Shown: one piece after another, positions 7,493 through 37,506 of the stretch | Position numbering within the stretch: the first letter of the stretch is position 1 | How the letters are laid out: the number at the start of each line of letters is the position of its first letter | From: a virus | Direction: 5' to 3' (one strand) | DNA: 39,013 nt | IMG/VR virus record: IMGVR_UViG_3300008110_008646 | Span: 1 to 39,013 of that record | Notes under the pieces: generated by a model | What the model was told of the DNA's origin: nothing | Seen by the model: only the letters and a program-made list of their open reading frames with translations | The model's database searches: none | Program-made: the position numbers and the translations under genes

Positions 7493-8089
7493 TTATATTA
7501 AAAATTTTAAAATCTTTTCTTTTACCCCACTTTGTTTGATACCTTCGGTTCCTAATGGTGTCTCGACAAAGTTGTCCAACCCCCATTCATGTTCATACTC
7601 AATACCATAATCAAGACCAGTTTTACCCATTTTTAAATCATCAATTGAAACCCAATGGGTAATTTCTGGATGATCGAACAGATATTGCTTAATCTCAATA
7701 GATCTGGTTTGTTCTAAATCCCATTGACGAGACCAGGGAAACCCAGCCTTGTATGCTTCAATATACCATCTACACTTTCCTAGGTTAGGGGTGAAATCAA
7801 TCGGTTTCTTAATGATACCTTGTTGTCCATAATATTCACCCATCTCTTCAACATTCGCCCATCTCTTCCAATCAGAACTAACAACAATCTCAGCACCCGT
7901 CTCTTCCAATATTGAATTCAAAACCTTAACTGCTTTATCATCAAAGTCATCAAAACGATATTCCAAAGGAATCTCATCATTATTCATAGATAACTTACGC
8001 CCTCCCCACTTTTTTTGTTTCTTGAAACGTCCACCCCAGTTGTTGGATAGACAAATCACACCATCATGATCTAGAAATATTACCTTCAT
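7493..8089 (-). CDS. HAD-like phosphatase domain protein
   Basis: A 198-residue protein with HAD-superfamily signatures: motif I FLDHDGV (Asp7, Asp9), motif II IVVSSDWK, and a late acidic motif VSIDDLK. The layout is like the small HAD domains grouped with RNA-repair Swiss-army-knife proteins and with T4-type phage phosphatases, but no kinase or ligase domain is attached. It probably removes a phosphate from a nucleotide, sugar or nucleic acid end; the substrate is unknown. The start at 8089 is required to keep motif I, which forces a 26-base overlap with the upstream membrane-protein gene. Confidence 0.75.
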   Translation of the reverse strand: MKVIFLDHDGVICLSNNWGGRFKKQKKWGGRKLSMNNDEIPLEYRFDDFDDKAVKVLNSILEETGAEIVVSSDWKRWANVEEMGEYYGQQGIIKKPIDFTPNLGKCRWYIEAYKAGFPWSRQWDLEQTRSIEIKQYLFDHPEITHWVSIDDLKMGKTGLDYGIEYEHEWGLDNFVETPLGTEGIKQSGVKEKILKFLI

Positions 8090-10883: not shown

Positions 10884-11129
10884 TTAATCTAACAATTCAT
10901 CCGTGTTTATGCTGTGATCGTCAAGAATTTCATATATTTTTTCAAAGACCATCTCAAGAGCATCGTACTTATCTATTTCTTTACTGTCCATAGACCACTC
11001 TAAGGTTTTTTTAGTGTTATGTGTGATATCCCAAAGAGCAGATGCCATATCTAATGATTTGATCGCCCTAAAATGGGCTTTTCTATCATCAGGATCATCC
11101 ATATCAAATTTAAGTATTGCTTCTGCCAT
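10884..11129 (-). CDS. Small acidic conserved phage protein
   Basis: An 81-residue acidic helical protein. The start MAEAILKFDMDD with later SALWDI resembles a common small phage family (A.L.F.LPE......A......S.LWDL) of unknown role. Its ATG shares a TAATG junction with the stop of the 2OG-oxygenase-like gene upstream, so it is translationally coupled to it. Confidence 0.55.
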   Translation of the reverse strand: MAEAILKFDMDDPDDRKAHFRAIKSLDMASALWDITHNTKKTLEWSMDSKEIDKYDALEMVFEKIYEILDDHSINTDELLD

Positions 11130-11743
11130 TATATTAATGTTTTTATATTTTTACTATTATCTATTCTAAAATCACCAGCCAAAACTATTCTATTATGTGT
11201 TGAGTTTTTGGCATGTATTGGGGCGTGCGGAATATCTGATTTGAAAATTAAAACCTCGTTCTCCACCGGTAGATATTTTAAAACGTTACCCTCATAATCT
11301 TTAAGTAATATATGACCATCAATACCAGATAAATTATTTGGCATTTGAAGGTAGAAAACAAAACTATAGGTCGGTACTGTGTTACCGGATCTTAATGCAA
11401 TATCTTTGTGGTTATGGTAAGTGGGCTCGTTGTTCTCAGGATCAAGTTCCATTGGTTGAACTGGGTTACTTCTCAAAACACTTATCCATTTATGTAAAGT
11501 AAATCTTTTTGCTTCAATAGAATTTTCATCACAAATTGATTTGCACACTTCAGAACAAAATTTATAAATGTCCTCAAACTCTTTTTTAGGTGCGCTGAAC
11601 ATATAACCATCTGACTTAACATGTGTCATTTTAGAAATCATACTATTGACGGATTCTAATATTTCATCTTTAGAAAAAATTGGTTTATAATCTAAAGAAT
11701 ATGCTATTACTTTTCCGTTTAATATTATTTCTTTTTTTTCCAC
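11129..11743 (-). CDS. Putative 2OG-Fe(II) oxygenase-like protein, GTG start
   Basis: A 204-residue protein whose second half fits the double-stranded beta-helix of phage 2-oxoglutarate/Fe(II) dioxygenases: YHNHKD (110-114) as the HxD pair, SFVFYLQMP, a glycine turn, ENEVLIFKSDIPHAPIH (His173 or His177 as distal ligand) and NRIVLAGDF with Arg185 as a possible 2OG contact. Phage members hydroxylate proteins or nucleic acids in a few cases; the target here is unknown. The start is GTG at 11743, inside the end of the upstream 46-residue gene. A cupin without oxygenase activity is the main alternative. Confidence 0.55.
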   Translation of the reverse strand: MEKKEIILNGKVIAYSLDYKPIFSKDEILESVNSMISKMTHVKSDGYMFSAPKKEFEDIYKFCSEVCKSICDENSIEAKRFTLHKWISVLRSNPVQPMELDPENNEPTYHNHKDIALRSGNTVPTYSFVFYLQMPNNLSGIDGHILLKDYEGNVLKYLPVENEVLIFKSDIPHAPIHAKNSTHNRIVLAGDFRIDNSKNIKTLI

Positions 11744-11876: not shown

Positions 11877-12206
11877 TTATTGCATTTGCATAAAATATTT
11901 TGTTTTCCAAAACTGCCACCATTTTCTTTTCACAATCGGTTTGCATTCAGAGAATGGGTTATTTCCAAATGAAACTGTGTTTAGATATTTTGATGTCAAA
12001 ACATTTAAAAATATCTCATGATATTTTTTAGGGATCTCATCAAAATCTGCTGTTATTTTAACATTCAAAAATTGTGGCCCGTCTTCGGAATGAACAATAA
12101 GCTGCTCATTCAATGTAATTACTGTGCTTGCTTTAATGTTAACATATCCCGAATTACCTAGATTTAATTCTCCGGTAATATGTTTTTTAAATTCTTCATC
12201 TGACAT
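11877..12206 (-). CDS. Unknown soluble protein
   Basis: A 109-residue protein with alternating beta-prone segments (GYVNIKASTVITL, FLNVKITADF) and a C-terminal basic aromatic motif KRKWWQFWK. No family is recognised. It lies 11 bases upstream of the 46-residue membrane peptide and one base after the preceding gene, with start context AATAATATG. Confidence 0.5.
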   Translation of the reverse strand: MSDEEFKKHITGELNLGNSGYVNIKASTVITLNEQLIVHSEDGPQFLNVKITADFDEIPKKYHEIFLNVLTSKYLNTVSFGNNPFSECKPIVKRKWWQFWKTKYFMQMQ

Positions 12207-13212: not shown

Positions 13213-14610
13213 TTAACTAATTGATTTTGAATTAGTTATAATATCATATTTTTCTTTAATAGGGTTAACTTCTTTGTATTTCTCCATTTTAACACTGAAG
13301 ATATCAACCGCATCATCAAAATCTTTTGGTGGGGTAGAATTTGCTTTACCTCTGTGTTGGTTTAGGTGTCCCTTCCTGTATTGAATGTTTATTCTTTTGT
13401 TACCTAATGATATTGATGCGTGTATGTATAATGACCCAACATTAAATTGTTTGGCCATACAATTCTTCATTATCATGCCCTCAATCTTAAATTGATCTTC
13501 TGTTAAAATTAGTGCTGGCTTAAAAATCTTACCGTTAAATTCGATCGGTTCTTCCAAATCTTTTACCATATCTTCTGGTAATGTATATTTTAACTTGTAA
13601 CCGAGTTTAAAATGCTTTTTGTGTAGCTCCCAACTATCTTTTAATGAAATTAAATGATGGCAATTACTTGCTTTTATTTTTACATTTAGCCCATTACTTT
13701 TTAAAAAGTCTTTCAAAACAAACAATTCTTGTAATGTGTTAAGTATGCCGTCACTAGTGATCACATCAACTTCATTATATTTTTTTAGAGATTTTGCAAT
13801 AGCTTTTTTCTCAGATTCATCTTCACAAACAAATAATTTATTTGTTTTCATATATTCAAGACAGATGGTTTCCCACTCAAACTCTCTGATATAATCGACA
13901 TAGTTTTCACCAAACAGGGTGCATAAAAATCTAACTGATTTAAAGTTTATCTTAGGTATTGATGGCTTTCTACTTGAAAGGGCCCCAACCAGATATTTGC
14001 TTTTAATGTTAAATTGCTCTAACACCGCCGGAACAAACTTATTATCATTTGCTTTAAGGTATTTCTTTTTAGGATAAGCTTCACATATGTCCCAGTAAAC
14101 ACAATCGTGACCCTTTATTCCTTTCATCTTCAAATGATAATCCAATAATATATCATATAATGGATTTATTTTATGCTCCTTATCTTGTTGGATGTCACTC
14201 AAGCCCAGGTCTACAGTAATTAATTTGTATATATCTAGGCACGCTCTTTTGTATTTAACCCCCCAGAAATTATGTCTTTTCTCTCCAGTGAAAAAACCTC
14301 TACTTGTTAATTCAATTAACATATCGAAATTATTTCTTTTGGCTCGAATAATATTTCTGTGAAGAACATAATTGTTTTCTTTTTTATTTATTAATCTATA
14401 TATAACATTGATGTCACCATTTGATTTATTAATAGTTAATCCGTGTTCATATGTTAGATAATTTTTTCTACCTAATCTAGCATATTCTATATAGAATTCT
14501 GAAGTGAATAAAAGGAAATCATTATCAGAAGCCAATTTCAATTTACATAAATTTCTAAGTGGCTTATTCCTCTCGTACTTTTCCTGTTCGTGATAAAATA
14601 AAACTTCCAT
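13213..14610 (-). CDS. PcfJ-like protein, shorter and divergent copy
   Basis: A 465-residue basic protein, paralogous to the 633-residue neighbour. The two share (D/E)AYP.KK.LK.N.NK (from ~178), IKASNCHHL against MTASNLKDF (~312), a GY..KY..ED (or PED) stretch, (I/L)EEPI, and the PcfJ motif region. Here the motif is EGMIMKNC (Cys384) instead of EGSHMHHC, so the conserved histidine is Asn. PcfJ-like proteins occur on conjugative plasmids and phages; their biochemistry is unknown. The start codon lies in one arm of a nine-base inverted repeat. The histidine loss may mean altered activity or decay, but the frame is intact. Confidence 0.7.
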   Translation of the reverse strand: MEVLFYHEQEKYERNKPLRNLCKLKLASDNDFLLFTSEFYIEYARLGRKNYLTYEHGLTINKSNGDINVIYRLINKKENNYVLHRNIIRAKRNNFDMLIELTSRGFFTGEKRHNFWGVKYKRACLDIYKLITVDLGLSDIQQDKEHKINPLYDILLDYHLKMKGIKGHDCVYWDICEAYPKKKYLKANDNKFVPAVLEQFNIKSKYLVGALSSRKPSIPKINFKSVRFLCTLFGENYVDYIREFEWETICLEYMKTNKLFVCEDESEKKAIAKSLKKYNEVDVITSDGILNTLQELFVLKDFLKSNGLNVKIKASNCHHLISLKDSWELHKKHFKLGYKLKYTLPEDMVKDLEEPIEFNGKIFKPALILTEDQFKIEGMIMKNCMAKQFNVGSLYIHASISLGNKRINIQYRKGHLNQHRGKANSTPPKDFDDAVDIFSVKMEKYKEVNPIKEKYDIITNSKSIS

Positions 14611-14643
14611 CTACATCTTAGTTTACCTAAAATATAGATGGAA
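14605..14643 (-). promoter_or_regulatory. Inverted repeat enclosing the start codon of the short PcfJ-like gene
   Basis: In the transcript TTCCATCTA (14643-14635) pairs perfectly with TAGATGGAA (14613-14605) across a 21-base loop. The ATG at 14610-14608 is inside the second arm. The long PcfJ-like gene ends just upstream, so ribosomes finishing it at 14662 would stop about 20 bases short of the hairpin. This suggests translational control of the second gene. Confidence 0.4.
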
Positions 14644-14661
14644 ATCATGAATTAATAAACC

Positions 14662-16563
14662 CTAAAATAATTCTAAAAGGTTACCGAAAACATCTGGTTC
14701 TTTTACTTCTAATTGAACACCATTTATTACTAATGGTACCTTTTCTTTTGATGTGGATTTAATTGAGCCTCTAAAAATGTTTACTCTATGTTTTGTTTTT
14801 TCTAGTGCAAATTCAAATCTTTCTGGAGGAACAGCATTGCAGAAGTATTTTGCTTGCACACATGATTTATCTCTGACGTCAAATTCACAAGTAACCCTTT
14901 CGCTTCCGGTTGGACTACCTTCTCTAACTGAAACAATAATTGAGCGTTCTTTATCTGCATAGCTTGCAACACAATGATGCATATGAGAACCCTCTTCAGA
15001 ATATTCGCCATCAATTTTTAACAATACTGGATAAAAGGTTTGGGTTAAATTACCGTGTTCGTCTTTTATCAATATAGGTTCTTCAATATGTTTTATCAAT
15101 CTATCTTCAAAAACATATTTAATACTATATCCCTTTCTTATTGCTCGATCAATACTTGAAAACTCTAGATGTTCATTATGAAAATCTTTAAGATTGGATG
15201 CTGTCATTTCTATGTGAGGTAACTGCGCCCTTATTTTCACTAACATATCAAGATGATCATTGAAAGTATGAAATTGCATAAGTTGTGTATTTTCATATAA
15301 CGTTATAACATTATTTTCTTCATACTTTAACCTATCCTGACTGAAGAATTCATTTATTAATTTTAATAAACATTTTCTTTCAGAATCTTTTATATCATAC
15401 TCATACTTGCTTGTTAACGCCTCATATATAGATCCACCCATAAGTTCATTATTTTTCTTTTTAGGATTAATAAAAAACTTTTCATTAACATTATGAATAT
15501 ACTTGTGTAAGTTTTTATAACCAAAATATCTCGCCAAAAGTATTAGTTTTTTTATATCGATATCAGGATGTTTATGTAGTAGTTTTATTGTCCCTTTCGA
15601 TTTTATACCCAACCTATCTAAGATACTAGCAATTAATTTATTTTCATTTTTCTTTAAGAACTTCTTTGTGGGGTAAGCGTCCATTATTAATCCCTCATAA
15701 TGATTAGGGACTTTAATTTTATTTATCTCAACGAACACTCGCATAATCATAGATAAAACTTTGGCTCCGATATTCGTATGATCATTTGAATTAATGGTTT
15801 CTACATATGGGAGCTTTGATAAAATAGAATGTGATAAACATTTCATGAATTCGCTATCATCAAAAATCTTTTTAGCCTCAAGGTTTAAAGGATGTTCATC
15901 TTTAGAATTACCACCCCACATATGAATAATATTACCAGATGTTCTGCTAAAGAAATTCATTAAAACTTGCATCAGGTGCTTGAAGTTATTTTGTCTAATT
16001 TTTGGTGTCTTAACCCCCTCATAACTCATCACGTTACCGGTTCTGAAGTTAATTTTGAATCCAAATGCTGAACGATTTTTCTTAAAGTATTTACTGTTTA
16101 CTGTTCTAGCTTTCCTATATACATAAAACCTAACAGAAATGGTGTCACCATCTATTGATATGTTTCTTTCATGAATTTCTGTGGAAACAGAACTAAATGC
16201 TCTACCATAATGCTTTAATAGATGACGCTCTTTTGTTGTATAAAAGGTTTGAATACGGTTAGACCAATTGTCTAGCTTAATCATTTCTCCATCCGATTCG
16301 TTGCTGTAGAAATATTTTGTATTCTTTTTTTTGTATTCCTTTTTGTTGTGAAGTTTTATTTTAAACTTACTTCTAAGGAACCTTTCGAGCTCTTCACCAT
16401 TCGCTACTCTAACAACGTCCGGTGAAAAAAAATCAACATTATCTAGTTCTAAATTTAGGTCCTCGTGAACTTGATTCTCTACCTTTGATTCGATAGTCGA
16501 ATAATCTTTATATGGTTCAATAGCATAAAACTGAAATCTTTGGGTAAGTATCGTTTTTTTCAT
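14662..16563 (-). CDS. PcfJ-like protein, long copy
   Basis: A 633-residue protein. The C-terminal third carries the PcfJ core: KIDGEYSEEGSHMHHCVASY (Met528, His530, Cys531), then SIIVSVR and a beta stretch ending at VPPERFEFAL. Residues 1-280 are basic and unlike known domains to me, with an acidic patch at 34-50 and a Tyr/Lys-rich region at 72-170. It starts with MKKTIL and has no signal or membrane helix. A perfect TATATTTG box lies 26 bases upstream. The shorter paralogue follows by 51 bases, so the pair is probably an ancient tandem duplication kept with divergent motifs. Function unknown; nucleic-acid association is sometimes supposed for the family. Confidence 0.75.
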   Translation of the reverse strand: MKKTILTQRFQFYAIEPYKDYSTIESKVENQVHEDLNLELDNVDFFSPDVVRVANGEELERFLRSKFKIKLHNKKEYKKKNTKYFYSNESDGEMIKLDNWSNRIQTFYTTKERHLLKHYGRAFSSVSTEIHERNISIDGDTISVRFYVYRKARTVNSKYFKKNRSAFGFKINFRTGNVMSYEGVKTPKIRQNNFKHLMQVLMNFFSRTSGNIIHMWGGNSKDEHPLNLEAKKIFDDSEFMKCLSHSILSKLPYVETINSNDHTNIGAKVLSMIMRVFVEINKIKVPNHYEGLIMDAYPTKKFLKKNENKLIASILDRLGIKSKGTIKLLHKHPDIDIKKLILLARYFGYKNLHKYIHNVNEKFFINPKKKNNELMGGSIYEALTSKYEYDIKDSERKCLLKLINEFFSQDRLKYEENNVITLYENTQLMQFHTFNDHLDMLVKIRAQLPHIEMTASNLKDFHNEHLEFSSIDRAIRKGYSIKYVFEDRLIKHIEEPILIKDEHGNLTQTFYPVLLKIDGEYSEEGSHMHHCVASYADKERSIIVSVREGSPTGSERVTCEFDVRDKSCVQAKYFCNAVPPERFEFALEKTKHRVNIFRGSIKSTSKEKVPLVINGVQLEVKEPDVFGNLLELF

Positions 16564-17568: not shown

Positions 17569-18684
17569 TTAATTACTTAGTGGTGCTTTAATTTTTGGAT
17601 GTGACTGATAGTTTAATAATTCAAAACAATCAGGTCTATAACTTAATATTTTTTGTTCGAATGTTTTTTCGCCCAAGTGAGCTTTAACTGCTTCATGTTG
17701 ATACCAATTACGTTCTGTGATTTGCACTGTAGGTAATTGAAATGGCTCTCTGCTAATTTGTTCCTTTGCTTGTTCAATATGGTTAGAATATAAATGAACA
17801 TCACCTAAGTTACCTATTAGCTCATCTGGTATCATCTTAACTTCTTTTGCAATAATTTCTAGCAGCAGCGCATAAGATGAGATGTTGAATGGTAAACCTA
17901 AGAATGTATCTACACTTCGTTGATTCCACATTAAAGAGATGGCTTTTGTTGGTATGTTTTGTTTATCACACATATCCCCCGTAACCGTTGAGCCAAATCT
18001 GAAATCACCTAGCTTTACTCTTTCATAAAGTGTTAGGTCTCTTGTATAAACTTGAAATCCATAATGACAAGGTGGGAGAACCATCTGATCTAATTGACCC
18101 ACGTTCCATGCGCTCACCATCAATCTTCTACTGTCTGGATTTGTTTTTAAATCTTTAATAAGATTAGCTATTTGATCAATCCATTCATCCCCCTCAACAT
18201 ATGTATCATTACCAGTTAAGGGGTCTTTTAGTGTTGTTTTAATTAATTTTTTGGTGTGCCATTCTCTCCACTGTGCACCATAAATTGGGCCGAGTTCACC
18301 CCACTCATCAGCGAAGTCTTGATTCTCTCGAATCATTTGTTCAAATTGATTTATGTCAGCAACATCGCCACCCCCATCATATTGTTTAACAATAGATTTA
18401 GTATTTCTATAATTCTTATATGCATCACCGCTCCAGATATGACAATCGTAATCCAATAAAAACTTGATGTTAGTATCTCCTCTTAGAAACCATAGAAGCT
18501 CTGTTACAAGAGATTTCCAAGCCATCTTCTTAGTTGTAAGCAAAGGAAAACCTTCACTCATTTTATGACGAATCTGTCTACCAAAAACTGAAATAGTCCC
18601 GGTTCCTGTCCTGTCTTTCTTTTCAATACCGTTATCTAAAATATCTTGTAAAAGATCCTGGTAGCATTTATCTATATTGTTCAT
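17569..18684 (-). CDS. thyA: Thymidylate synthase
   Basis: A 371-residue ThyA-type enzyme making dTMP from dUMP with methylenetetrahydrofolate. Clear motifs: DRTGTGT near the N-terminus, LLWFLRGDTNI, GPIYGAQWR, DPDSRR-like NPDSRRLMVSAWN, the catalytic LPPCHYGFQ (Cys206), LMWNQRSVDTFLGLPFNI and the C-terminal GDVHLYSNH. It is about 100 residues longer than the 264-residue E. coli enzyme because of insertions at ~84-128, ~145-168 and ~212-240, as seen in several phage ThyA. It supplies thymidine for AT-rich phage DNA. It overlaps the upstream membrane-protein gene by 17 bases. Confidence 0.95.
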   Translation of the reverse strand: MNNIDKCYQDLLQDILDNGIEKKDRTGTGTISVFGRQIRHKMSEGFPLLTTKKMAWKSLVTELLWFLRGDTNIKFLLDYDCHIWSGDAYKNYRNTKSIVKQYDGGGDVADINQFEQMIRENQDFADEWGELGPIYGAQWREWHTKKLIKTTLKDPLTGNDTYVEGDEWIDQIANLIKDLKTNPDSRRLMVSAWNVGQLDQMVLPPCHYGFQVYTRDLTLYERVKLGDFRFGSTVTGDMCDKQNIPTKAISLMWNQRSVDTFLGLPFNISSYALLLEIIAKEVKMIPDELIGNLGDVHLYSNHIEQAKEQISREPFQLPTVQITERNWYQHEAVKAHLGEKTFEQKILSYRPDCFELLNYQSHPKIKAPLSN

Positions 18685-20372: not shown

Positions 20373-20378
20373 TATAAA

Positions 20379-20413
20379 AATAACGGGTATATATTTTTTT
20401 GCCCGTTATTTTA
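20379..20413 (+). terminator. Rho-independent-like terminator
   Basis: AATAACGGG and CCCGTTATT form a nine-base perfect stem around a 14-base loop, followed by TTATTG. It ends the DUF192/small Cys protein transcript and separates it from the ribbon-helix-helix gene and the glycosyltransferase operon. The U-run is weak. Confidence 0.6.
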
Positions 20414-26293: not shown

Positions 26294-27398
26294 TATCACA
26301 TTTGTTTTAGCAGTTTTAAATAAATTAGATCTAACAGAGAATTGTTATTCCCGGATAAGAGAAATATATCCAACAGTACCATTTGTAATAAGCAGCGGCG
26401 GATCAACAGATGGTACCAAGGAATGGCTTGTAAGTATGGCTGAAAAAGATGCTAATCTAACCATCTTTCATGATGATGATAGATTAGCATTTTCAGAAAC
26501 ATATAATTCTGGGATAAAATTAGTCGATACAGACAAGTTAGTATTAATTCACAATGATATGATCATCGGAGAAGGGTTTTTAGAGGCCATAGAGAGGCTT
26601 TTAGAACCAAATATGGTGTTATCATATACAACAATAGAACCGCCGATTTTTAAGGGTCATAGAAGGCCCGGTAAGGTATTATTAGATTTGGGTTCATCAT
26701 TCGAAAATTTTGATTATTTTAATTTTAATCAATATGTTGAAGAACATAAAAATGATGACGATTTATATGATGGTGCCGTGTTTTTTATGAGTGGGTATAA
26801 AAAAATGTTTGAAGATGTTGGATTTTTTGATGGGTTTAGTTTTATCCCATGTTTTTGTGAAGATGATGATTTCCTTATAAGAGCAAAATTAAAAGGATAC
26901 GAATTAAAGACATGTGAATCAGCAATTACTTATCATTTTGTTTCTCAAACATCAAGGTTTAGTGATGACTTTAAAAAGGATAGAGCATTACATGAAGTGT
27001 CTTCTGGAAGAAACTTTGTTAGAAAATGGGGTATACCTATAATCATTTTTAATGAACTGCGTTATTGGGAAGAAAAGAATTTTACATATAAAACTTTTTC
27101 AATGGGGTTAATAACGAGAAATAAAAAAAGACTCATGCAAGTTGAGCCATTCTTTGATAAGATAGACCTTGGTGAGGTTCCGGAGGATTATATTAATAAT
27201 GAACAAAAAAGAACTAGGTATGATCTTAGAACTAAATTTACATTAATAGACACTGTAGATGTGACGGTAACAGAATTGGAAGAATTTACAGATGAAGATA
27301 TGCAAACATTATATCGTTTAAGGTTATCTATTCCGTACTATGAGCCTGGGGAATATCAATTAGGTAATATGTTAATACAAATAAAAAAGGAGCTTTAA
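26280..27398 (+). CDS. GT2-type glycosyltransferase with extra C-terminal domain
   Basis: A 372-residue protein from the ATG at 26280 (context ATATTATATG); an in-frame start 15 codons upstream lies in the previous gene. It has ITFVLAVLNKLDLTENC, SSGGSTDGTKEW, LVLIHNDMII (the acidic metal site) and CFCEDDDFLIRAKLKGY, a usual GT2 acceptor-side motif. The last ~110 residues, ending in a Glu-rich stretch, are not part of the GT core. Its last codons and stop are inside the terminator stem-loop. Confidence 0.8.
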   Translation: MSTTNITFVLAVLNKLDLTENCYSRIREIYPTVPFVISSGGSTDGTKEWLVSMAEKDANLTIFHDDDRLAFSETYNSGIKLVDTDKLVLIHNDMIIGEGFLEAIERLLEPNMVLSYTTIEPPIFKGHRRPGKVLLDLGSSFENFDYFNFNQYVEEHKNDDDLYDGAVFFMSGYKKMFEDVGFFDGFSFIPCFCEDDDFLIRAKLKGYELKTCESAITYHFVSQTSRFSDDFKKDRALHEVSSGRNFVRKWGIPIIIFNELRYWEEKNFTYKTFSMGLITRNKKRLMQVEPFFDKIDLGEVPEDYINNEQKRTRYDLRTKFTLIDTVDVTVTELEEFTDEDMQTLYRLRLSIPYYEPGEYQLGNMLIQIKKEL

Positions 27399-27417
27399 AA
27401 GCTCCTTATTTTTTATT
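27387..27417. terminator. Bidirectional terminator
   Basis: AAGGAGCTT and AAGCTCCTT form a nine-base stem with a TAA loop, and this TAA is the stop codon of the last glycosyltransferase. Plus-strand ATTTTTTATT follows, and minus-strand TTTTTTATT follows in the other direction. It closes both the plus sugar operon and the minus block starting at 39 kb. Confidence 0.8.
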
Positions 27418-35247: not shown

Positions 35248-36354
35248 TTATGCTCTCCAGCCACAATGACCGGAAGATGTACCGCCATTAACACCAGGTG
35301 CCAATCCGCTTACGCTTGTTGTTCCAGTATCTGTTGCATAAGTAAATTTCCAGCTTGTATTATTTTGTGCTCCGTCATAGTTTCCAAGCATATATTGGTG
35401 GTCTTGCCCCATGGTAAAGTTTTCTTCACCACAATTTGGGTGTGGTTTAGCAACGTTACCTAGATTTGTGTCGCTAGCGTTGCTCCATCTTCTTAGATTG
35501 TATCCGCCCGAATAACTACCTTCGTTACCAGCGTAACCTTTACCTACTTTAGAACTAATGCCTTTTTGTTGTGAGTGTGCCCCCCACATACCGGTTGAAG
35601 TAAATGTTTCTGAAGCAAAGCTGAATTTAATTCCTGCACTAGATGTCCATCCATATCCAAAGTTTTCATCAGAAAAAGCGGATCCACCATCACCACCATC
35701 TATTGTTGTTAAGTTATAACCGGTCATTATTGATTCGTTGCTTAAATCAAATTTTTCAACATAAGAACTACCACCAGTAAACATGTATGCAAATTCAGTT
35801 TCTTTATGCATTGTACCCAAATCACTTCTTGCTGTTGTTATATTAAATTTTGTTTGGTGTGCATAGTTTGTATCATTTGCCATATTAATTGCTGATGTTC
35901 TCACACCATTAACATCTGATGGCCCTTTAAATGCATTATCGGTATTCACTGACCATACAAAGAAAATGTACTTACTACAAGCACCTGATGTATATGATGC
36001 CGGATAATCTAATAGTTCACCAATATGTGATGTTTGGTCTGTTGAATTAATTGTTTTATGTACGTTCTTCCATGGTGAAGAGTTTTTATACCCTCCGGCC
36101 AAATATGAAACAGCAATTATTTGTCTAAATTTAAAGCCAACATTTGAATTGACTTGTGAGGATACTCTTACCCATCCACTATCACCATTATCTAACCCAG
36201 TATAAACCATGAGAAAACTACCACTAGCCGCTTGCTCCAAATACAAAGAACCAGTAACAGGACTGCTTGGCCTATTTGCCCTACTTCCTGCTGGTGGTTT
36301 TGCAATCCCCTGTGCTCTAAGTGACCCACTAATCTCTATGTTATCGTGACGCAT
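35248..36354 (-). CDS. Kelch-like tail protein, copy 2
   Basis: A 368-residue paralogue starting RHDNIEISGSLRAQG, with the linker GSRANRPSSPVTGSLYLEQ, and repeats SSYVEKFDLSNES, FGYGWTSSAGIKFSFASET, GYAGNEGSYSGGYNLRRWS and YMLGNYDGAQNN, ending GTSSGHCGWRA. It is closer to copy 3 than to copy 1 in the middle region. The gene starts 18 bases after the stop of copy 1. Probable role as in copy 3. Confidence 0.7.
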   Translation of the reverse strand: MRHDNIEISGSLRAQGIAKPPAGSRANRPSSPVTGSLYLEQAASGSFLMVYTGLDNGDSGWVRVSSQVNSNVGFKFRQIIAVSYLAGGYKNSSPWKNVHKTINSTDQTSHIGELLDYPASYTSGACSKYIFFVWSVNTDNAFKGPSDVNGVRTSAINMANDTNYAHQTKFNITTARSDLGTMHKETEFAYMFTGGSSYVEKFDLSNESIMTGYNLTTIDGGDGGSAFSDENFGYGWTSSAGIKFSFASETFTSTGMWGAHSQQKGISSKVGKGYAGNEGSYSGGYNLRRWSNASDTNLGNVAKPHPNCGEENFTMGQDHQYMLGNYDGAQNNTSWKFTYATDTGTTSVSGLAPGVNGGTSSGHCGWRA

Positions 36355-36372
36355 ATTTTATAAATACATTTT

Positions 36373-37506
36373 TTAATTTCTCCAACCGCAATGCCCCGAT
36401 GACGTACCACCATTAACCCCTGGAGCTAGTCCAGCTGGGTTTACGGTTCCCGTATCAGTTGCATAAACAAACTTCCAACTCGTATTATTTTGTAAACCAT
36501 CATAGTTTCCAAGCATATATTGATGATCTTGCCCCATAGTGAAGTTTTCTTCCCCACAATTTCCGTGTGGTTTGGCTACGTTACCTATGTTGGTTTCGTT
36601 AAATACATTCCATCTTCTTAAATTATAACCTCCATTATATGTGCCCTCATTACCAGCATATCCCTTACCCCATTTTGAGCTAATACCTTTTTGTTGACCG
36701 CTTGCACCCCATTGTTGGTTTGTTGTGAAAGTATCTGTGGCAAAAAACAATTTATTACCACTCTCCGAACCATAACCATAACCATAATTTTCATCTGAAA
36801 AACCAGATGCACCAAGAGAACTAGTGAGGGATGTTTTTAAAGTTAAGTATGGTTGCATATTTGGATAATACACACTATACATAACTTCATTAGTTAAATT
36901 AAATTTCTCTACAGTCGCAACACCACCACCAAATACCCAAGCAAATTCTGTTTCTTGGAATAATGTACCTAAATCGTCTCTTGCATTTGCTAAATCCCAT
37001 TTAGATTGGTGTGCATACGCAGTTTCATTTACCATATGAACACCTGTTGTATATGTTGAATGTATTTGTGTTGCCGATTTCCATAGACCGTCTGTGTTAG
37101 TTGACCATACAAACAATATTGATTTACTACACGCACCAGATGTATATGATGCTGGATAGTCCATTAATTCACCTAAGTGAACTGTTTGATCGGTTGCATT
37201 TGTTGTGCGGTGTACATTCTTCCATGGTGAAGAATCTTTATAACCACCGGCCAAGTATGAGAAATTAATAATTTGTCTATATAAAAAACCTATTCTATCT
37301 GTATTTTGTGAACCAACTGGCTCCCATCCATCATCTCTATTTGATGCTGCTGTGTACGTGACAACAAAACTTCCACTACTAGATTCTTCAAGGTAAAGAG
37401 ATCCTATTTCTGGGCTAGATGGTCTATTAGCTCTTGGTCCTCTAGGTATTATATATTGTCCACTAACATCTAAAGAGCCACTAACAATTACATTTTCTCT
37501 TAACAT
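36373..37506 (-). CDS. Kelch-like tail protein, copy 1
   Basis: A 377-residue paralogue starting LRENVIVSGSLDVSG, with GPRANRPSSPEIGSLYLEE, SYLAGGYKDSSPWKNVH and blade-like repeats. It differs from the other copies by an insertion of about 10 residues (within MYSVYYPNMQPYLTLKTSL) and by GSESGNKLFFATDT in the third repeat. It ends GTSSGHCGWRN. The inserted loop is a candidate for receptor choice. A TATATTAAAG string lies directly before its start. Confidence 0.7.
   Translation of the reverse strand: MLRENVIVSGSLDVSGQYIIPRGPRANRPSSPEIGSLYLEESSSGSFVVTYTAASNRDDGWEPVGSQNTDRIGFLYRQIINFSYLAGGYKDSSPWKNVHRTTNATDQTVHLGELMDYPASYTSGACSKSILFVWSTNTDGLWKSATQIHSTYTTGVHMVNETAYAHQSKWDLANARDDLGTLFQETEFAWVFGGGVATVEKFNLTNEVMYSVYYPNMQPYLTLKTSLTSSLGASGFSDENYGYGYGSESGNKLFFATDTFTTNQQWGASGQQKGISSKWGKGYAGNEGTYNGGYNLRRWNVFNETNIGNVAKPHGNCGEENFTMGQDHQYMLGNYDGLQNNTSWKFVYATDTGTVNPAGLAPGVNGGTSSGHCGWRN

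Follow-up and report, generated by a model that had tools for sequence, protein, structure and literature searches.

A tandem pair of PcfJ-family phage genes with a conserved hairpin over the start codon of the second copy

The window analysed here is a virus record of 39,013 bases. Its minus strand carries, in tandem and 51 nt apart, two open reading frames that are called below the long and the short gene. Both are intact and, as a first-pass annotation of the DNA had claimed, the long protein contains the motif EGSHMHHC and the short one EGMIMKNC (Table 1). A hairpin at the junction of the two genes encloses the start codon of the short gene.

Table 1. Positions of the two genes, of their motifs and of the junction element in the window
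Feature	Position	Strand	Remarks
Long PcfJ-family protein	14662..16563	-	633 aa; ORF, PF14284 E 2.4e-11, AF2 fused model
Predicted layout of long protein: N-terminal beta domain, helical middle, C-terminal PcfJ core	14662..16563	-	AF2 fused model
Pfam PcfJ region, long protein residues 434-580: DH and EH helices, predicted GNAT-like core	14824..15264	-	Pfam, models
EGSHMHHC motif, long protein residues 524-531	14971..14994	-	ORF, alignment
Codon of E560, long gene	14884..14886	-	E in 32/33 longs, Q in 21/21 shorts
Junction element: long stop codon, spacer of about 15 nt, hairpin over short start codon	14589..14664	-	RNA model R1, 57.8 bits
Hairpin, 22-pair stem (17 Watson-Crick), 5-nt loop	14600..14648	-	Encloses start codon 14608-14610
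Short PcfJ paralogue, altered active-site positions	13213..14610	-	465 aa; ORF, tblastn, alignment
EGMIMKNC motif, short protein residues 377-384	13459..13482	-	ORF, alignment
Codon of Q410, short-copy counterpart of E560	13381..13383	-	Alignment

Genes of other kinds were noted elsewhere in the window. The frame at 17569-18684 is presumably, by the look of its sequence, a thymidylate synthase gene, and Bacillus phage CM1 also has an annotated thymidylate synthase close to its PcfJ-like gene. A HAD_SAK_2 domain protein ("Swiss Army Knife RNA repair" HAD) is encoded at 7493-8089, with relatives in 58 of the loci around the pair. The neighbouring frames 35248-36354 and 36373-37506 both match phrog_1417 (unknown function) with near-equal scores and form another tandem pair of paralogues. 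The protein encoded at 11129-11743 has weak PHROG matches to the endonuclease V and 2OG-Fe(II) oxygenase families; this gene may be a recent insertion, since only four loci (perhaps one contig) share it, at 100% identity.

The common descent of the long and short proteins, proposed from shared segments in the first-pass annotation, is borne out by a tblastn search of the record with its own long protein, which matched the short gene with an E-value of 2.2e-13 and 27% identity over residues 292-622 of the long protein; the AYP.KK and SN segments align between the copies. The long protein is a member of the Pfam family PF14284 (PcfJ), with 44.1 bits (E 2.4e-11) against a cut-off of 25. The short protein gave no match in the Pfam search and is thus below the curated cut-off of PF14284, as are the short genes of four relatives (14.2-16.1 bits), while the family is found above cut-off in 15 of 15 records of relatives. 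The only PHROGs match of the long protein is to phrog_3169 (unknown function; E 4.2e-7), and the short protein has only chance-level matches there. In phage records, the long protein found two partial matches (E 6e-3 and 9e-3) and the short protein none; a search of plasmids with the long protein, of PDB sequences with profiles of both proteins, and of NCBIfam and PADLOC returned nothing. Nor were relatives of the short alignment found in species genomes, by a pattern-based search that may miss distant ones. The earlier remark that PcfJ-like proteins are known mainly from plasmids finds no support here: of 16 matches with E <= 0.001 that a fused structure model of the two proteins (see below) has in the viral structure library BFVD, nine are phage proteins named PcfJ-like or PcfJ-domain. 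In the portions of the open-access literature covered by our search, no description of the fold or function of PcfJ was found.

Relatives were gathered by four scans of viral contigs. The scan for the short gene, from which the best 80 of 93 matches were taken, used patterns that include EGM[IV]MK and is hence biased towards that motif; MKNC is also present in three representatives reached via the long gene (L100, L101 and L112) and in L118/L009. By hand comparison of the listings, the short gene is carried by at least 86 virus contigs, 79 from the short-gene scan and seven found via the long gene or another scan. In 85 of the 86 contigs listed, the short gene is immediately preceded, on its own strand, by the long gene, which is complete or truncated at the contig end; the remaining contig (L082) starts inside the short gene. 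The pair is therefore present in other phages, where the annotation had advised looking for it. In all 111 two-gene loci (several loci per contig), the genes are on the same strand and the distance between them runs from -65 to +52 nt; it is negative where the ORF caller picked an upstream start codon. The pair farthest from that of the window, L009, shares 35% identity with it in the short protein and 28% in the long. The long gene without the short one is seen in three distant relatives, L119-L121, and in L116, where a homologue of the window gene 11877-12206 comes immediately after the long gene. L116 provides a natural comparison: the long gene and its downstream neighbour are kept, and the short gene and the hairpin are absent. 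One contig (L001, L011, L093) ends soon after the junction and has no short gene, with the junction element still in place.

Representatives chosen at 90% identity number 32 shorts and 37 longs. In the tree, the shorts fall on one side of a branch with an SH-aLRT of 100, which is most simply read as a single origin; because the outgroup branch is very long (7.8), neither the root nor the sequence of duplication and loss is sure. Judged by these comparisons, the long and short genes are ancient paralogues. The motif MKNCM is fixed in all 32 short representatives. dN/dS, computable for six of the seven pairs in each case, ranges from 0.025 to 0.069 for the short gene and from 0.073 to 0.172 for the long gene; the copy with the altered motif is thus under the stronger purifying selection. 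The suggestion that the two copies have different jobs gains from all of this: the short family has its own fixed motif, its own well-supported branch, stronger selection and a steady place beside the long gene. That the short copy is a decaying duplicate would fit the disappearance of about nine residues that the longs conserve, and its absence or breakage in related phages had been named beforehand as the sign of decay. Apart from L116, no such case was met among the relatives, and we reject decay, to which the low dN/dS and the fixed motif leave practically no chance.

The annotation had counted one lost motif residue. An alignment of 33 longs, three L119-type proteins and 21 shorts (alignment A4) raises the number to about nine long-conserved positions replaced across the short family. 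The pairs D436-H437 and E464-H465 are invariant in the longs and the L119-type proteins; H437, E464 and H465 are missing from every short, and D436 is retained in five. All 21 shorts have Y for S541, lack R547 and have Q for E560 (E in 32 of 33 longs), and T558 has become N in 20 of them and D in one. H530 is H in 33/33 longs and N in 21/21 shorts, a change which is less telling by itself since the three L119-type proteins also have N there with the other residues kept. Likewise, the loss of H527 in the short copy means little, as this position varies among the longs (18 F, 15 H). E524, C531, Q570 and N576 never vary among the 57 sequences, and R556 is R throughout except for one K. Because the L119-type proteins and seemingly, by eye, Bacillus phage CM1 retain R547, T558 and E560 or their equivalents, the states of the short copy look derived. 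E-to-Q replacement and a missing R commonly mark a lost catalytic function, so that, given the changes at E560 and R547, the short copy is unlikely to be the same enzyme.

A fused AlphaFold model of the long and short proteins, built from 18 paired rows, has a mean pLDDT of 75.8 and a pTM of 0.41. An N-terminal beta domain, a helical middle and a PcfJ core are seen in both proteins, so that the predicted likeness spans the whole chain; the long copy has an additional low-confidence stretch at residues 19-69. The N-terminal beta domain could not be assigned to a coherent family by VIA on the fused model. Modelled alone (209 residues, 57 rows), the PcfJ core reaches a pLDDT of 89.5 and a pTM of 0.75, and its predicted order is two long helices followed by strand-helix-helix-strand-strand-strand-helix-strand. 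The top match of the core in VIA-align is HAT1, with 106 residues aligned, an rmsd of 3.8 and a Z of 7.2, values of Z under 8 being in the range that the tool flags as unsafe; chains that we take to be of GNAT type fill 19 of the first 20 rows. Foldseek found no PDB match to the core with E <= 0.001. For these two reasons, the low Z and the Foldseek result, a GNAT-like transferase fold is held as likely only. The pyrophosphate loop of GNAT proteins, (R/Q)xxGx(G/A), sits between strand 4 and helix 3. A QxxGxA sequence is present in most shorts and in CM1, and a QxxYxC-like one in the longs, overlapping strand 4 in the model. To our knowledge, the conserved Cys and several other residues of PcfJ match no known GNAT catalytic set. 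If the GNAT-like fold is correct, the activity of PcfJ becomes directly testable.

Since the long copy has the full set of conserved polar residues on a GNAT-like predicted core, it is probably an enzyme. Acyl- or aminoacyl-type transfer would be the best guess from the predicted fold alone, and our confidence in this activity is low. The short copy, in which the DH and EH pairs, H530, S541, R547, T558 and E560 are lost while E, C, Q and N are kept (and R556 nearly always), is probably non-catalytic or re-purposed; this division into enzyme and pseudoenzyme is reasoned from the sequences. The short sister would probably bind the same type of ligand as the long protein and regulate or complement it. 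A fixed pair of one active-looking and one altered copy points to residues worth testing. The strict adjacency of the genes and the common architecture of their products would also suit an obligate heterodimer, or a larger complex, in which the hairpin sets the stoichiometry. Such a complex, compatible with the reading preferred below, is conceivable, though we would sooner bet against it, given the pTM of the fused model and the existence of L116 without a short gene. Of the earlier interpretation, common descent and different jobs are supported; the number of changed residues was too low, the hairpin over the start codon had been overlooked, and the heterodimer implied by "perhaps as partners" is conjectural, since no confident interface can be read from the fused model.

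The junction hairpin is the strongest in the window, with 17 Watson-Crick pairs compared to at most 14 in eight shuffles of one strand. The junction folds in all ten cases tested, the window included, with z from -3.40 to -8.11. With the short start taken, by assumption, as the M nearest eight residues before the Q-x-K motif, all three nucleotides of the AUG are paired with p > 0.9 in 50 of the 52 distinct start regions, L031 and L100 being the exceptions. When 39 genes of the window were folded by this procedure, complete pairing was also seen at a few further start codons, and the short start region had the lowest energy (-28.0 versus -22.1 kcal/mol for the next). Two further hairpins in the window lie elsewhere: a palindromic one at 27383-27411, flanked by T/A runs and lying between converging genes, is likely a two-way terminator, and one of 15 pairs at 20377-20412, on the plus strand, is placed ahead of glycosyltransferase genes.

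Covariation was assessed on 18 non-redundant junctions for a named helix of 13 pairs (232 cells). In this helix 97.8% of the cells are paired, compared to 29.4-52.0% in slid controls, and double-sided changes occur at seven pairs, in 30 cells. The covariation score is 0.470, against 0.193 for shuffled alignments (none of 500 as high) and 0.025-0.100 for slid ones. RNAalifold, unaided, predicted 12 of the 13 pairs, a separate register analysis of the junction helix gave 209 of 214 cells, and in all 18 junctions the A of the short AUG is paired at the same columns of the alignment. The short AUG is inside a conserved, covarying RNA helix, as is proper to a start-codon-sequestering hairpin. A DNA palindrome in place of an RNA hairpin is disfavoured: where only one side of a pair in the helix has changed, the result is mostly G-U when read on the sense strand, as at pairs 34-67, 35-66 and 40-61 of the covariation alignment; a separate count gave 59 G-U versus 9 A-C, with some stems (e.g. 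L008-L010) badly chosen. The covariance model of the element, R1, scores 20.2 bits on the plus strand at the junction versus 57.8 on the minus strand. None of 4227 Rfam models reached its gathering score; the sub-threshold matches within 14300-14900 had 26 bits versus 45 required (off the hairpin) and 19.3 versus 50 (overlapping it).

The hairpin is specific to the start of the short gene. In a simple stem scan, in which the short starts were placed by the assumption given above, 37 of the 47 short starts scored at least 25, a value that no long start (of 40) and no start of another gene (of 772) reached; the ten short starts under 25 are explained in part by the scan allowing loops of 10 or less. 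R1 finds one strong copy (55.9-72.2 bits), at the junction, in each of 14 pair-bearing phage records, which reach 335 kb. L116 and L119-L121 have no R1 match of junction strength, and the region after the long gene of L116 (L116:8869-8960) has no such fold (z +1.05). Additional copies of the element were rejected: outside the junctions, the top R1 scores (31.6 bits in G014 and 29 bits in L116) fall on sequences that fold as terminator-like hairpins off start codons; the L116 match was not recovered when the same place was searched as L123. Our confidence in the conservation of both the pair and the hairpin is high.

The spacing of the hairpin is also constrained. The helix begins 12-20 nt past the long stop codon in 50 of 51 junctions, and the distance from this stop to the short AUG varies from 35 to 55 nt among 18 junctions. 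In most relatives a ACTACACA-like element lies between the stop and the helix; the window's own clade has a different spacer. As 15 of the 17 plus-strand matches to ACTACACA are at the junction (24 loci), the element is junction-specific and was rejected as a genome-wide promoter motif.

The hairpin begins roughly at the point which the leading edge of a terminating ribosome would reach. With its AUG within the hairpin, the short protein would be made only once the hairpin is opened, whether ribosomes completing the long gene or a specific RNA-binding factor did this. The near-fixed distance from the stop and the buried AUG suggest that synthesis of the short protein depends on events at the junction. 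We infer, with moderate confidence, that the hairpin gates translation of the short gene, and in this direction. The reading that we prefer, and hold to be somewhat nearer true than false, is that two anciently duplicated PcfJ-family proteins are encoded as one operon, a catalytic one and an altered sister whose translation is gated by the hairpin. Several observations weigh against it: the hairpin of the window also fits a terminator pattern, L116 has kept a long gene with no short partner, ten of the 47 short starts fall under 25 in the stem scan, the GNAT matches have Z under 8 with no Foldseek PDB match at E <= 0.001, and the conserved residues match no known GNAT catalytic set, as noted above. 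A more elaborate version, which we regard as improbable, is a two-component transferase system of large phages that works as an autoregulated switch: the enzyme or its altered sister would read the dedicated RNA element at the junction, the ligand-bound or free protein opening or locking the AUG of the altered sister.

Two other roles for the hairpin were considered, and we rank translation gating first, a timing switch of the T4 type second and attenuation third. In the T4 genes e, soc, 49 and I-TevI, the Shine-Dalgarno sequence and/or the AUG is sequestered in a helix, late promoters lie in or beside the 5' arm in e and I-TevI, and such start-site helices silence the genes on read-through transcripts until a late promoter releases them, as set out in PMC3014915 and PMC2988022. 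By this precedent, a read-through mRNA with the full hairpin would be silent for the short gene, and a promoter inside the 5' arm would later yield an mRNA without that arm. A (C/A)TA(T/C)ATT stretch is indeed found in the 5' arm and loop in most rows. However, in compact versions of the element only 3-6 nt of the 3' arm are left before the AUG, so the mRNA would be nearly leaderless, and the flanking ACTACACA element is not genome-wide; we therefore think this switch unlikely, if a little less so than the third role, in which the hairpin would reduce the transcription that enters the short gene, acting as a weak intrinsic terminator or attenuator. The window's hairpin was flagged as terminator-like (one found, 0.3 expected). 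Nevertheless, the longest T run after the stem is at most 2 in eight of the 18 non-redundant junctions, and a terminator has no need for the A of the AUG to pair at the same columns in every one. Whichever its mode of action, the junction hairpin is a compact candidate RNA control element, supported by covariation and assayable in a simple reporter.

Each part of the locus can be compared with known systems. The long protein, being above the curated cut-off, resembles the PF14284 PcfJ-like proteins of plasmids and phages, and ORF109 of Bacillus phage CM1 shares with it the HC motif as well as the Q and N that follow the core; the short protein differs from the family in being below the cut-off, without counterparts of R547, T558 and E560. 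The core model has the strand and helix order of GNAT-fold acyltransferases and their relatives that use aminoacyl-tRNA (HAT1, PaiA, NatD, the C-terminal domain of MprF, FemX, ATE1), with Z under 8 and little sequence identity; the conserved Cys/His and DH/EH residues seem to be a feature of PcfJ proteins only. The combination of a PcfJ pair with a start-codon hairpin was not found described in the open-access literature searched, and the two kinds of element are known separately. In the MS2 replicase gene, an operator hairpin at or near the start site is bound by protein. The PcfJ hairpin shares this position on a phage mRNA with the operators of MS2 replicase and of T4 gene 43; these are protein-bound, whereas the PcfJ hairpin has no known binding protein. 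With T4 e, soc, 49 and I-TevI it has in common that an RNA helix sequesters the start of translation. Unlike the T4 hairpins, that of the PcfJ pair stands at a near-fixed distance past the stop codon of a paralogue, covaries, and occurs once per phage record.
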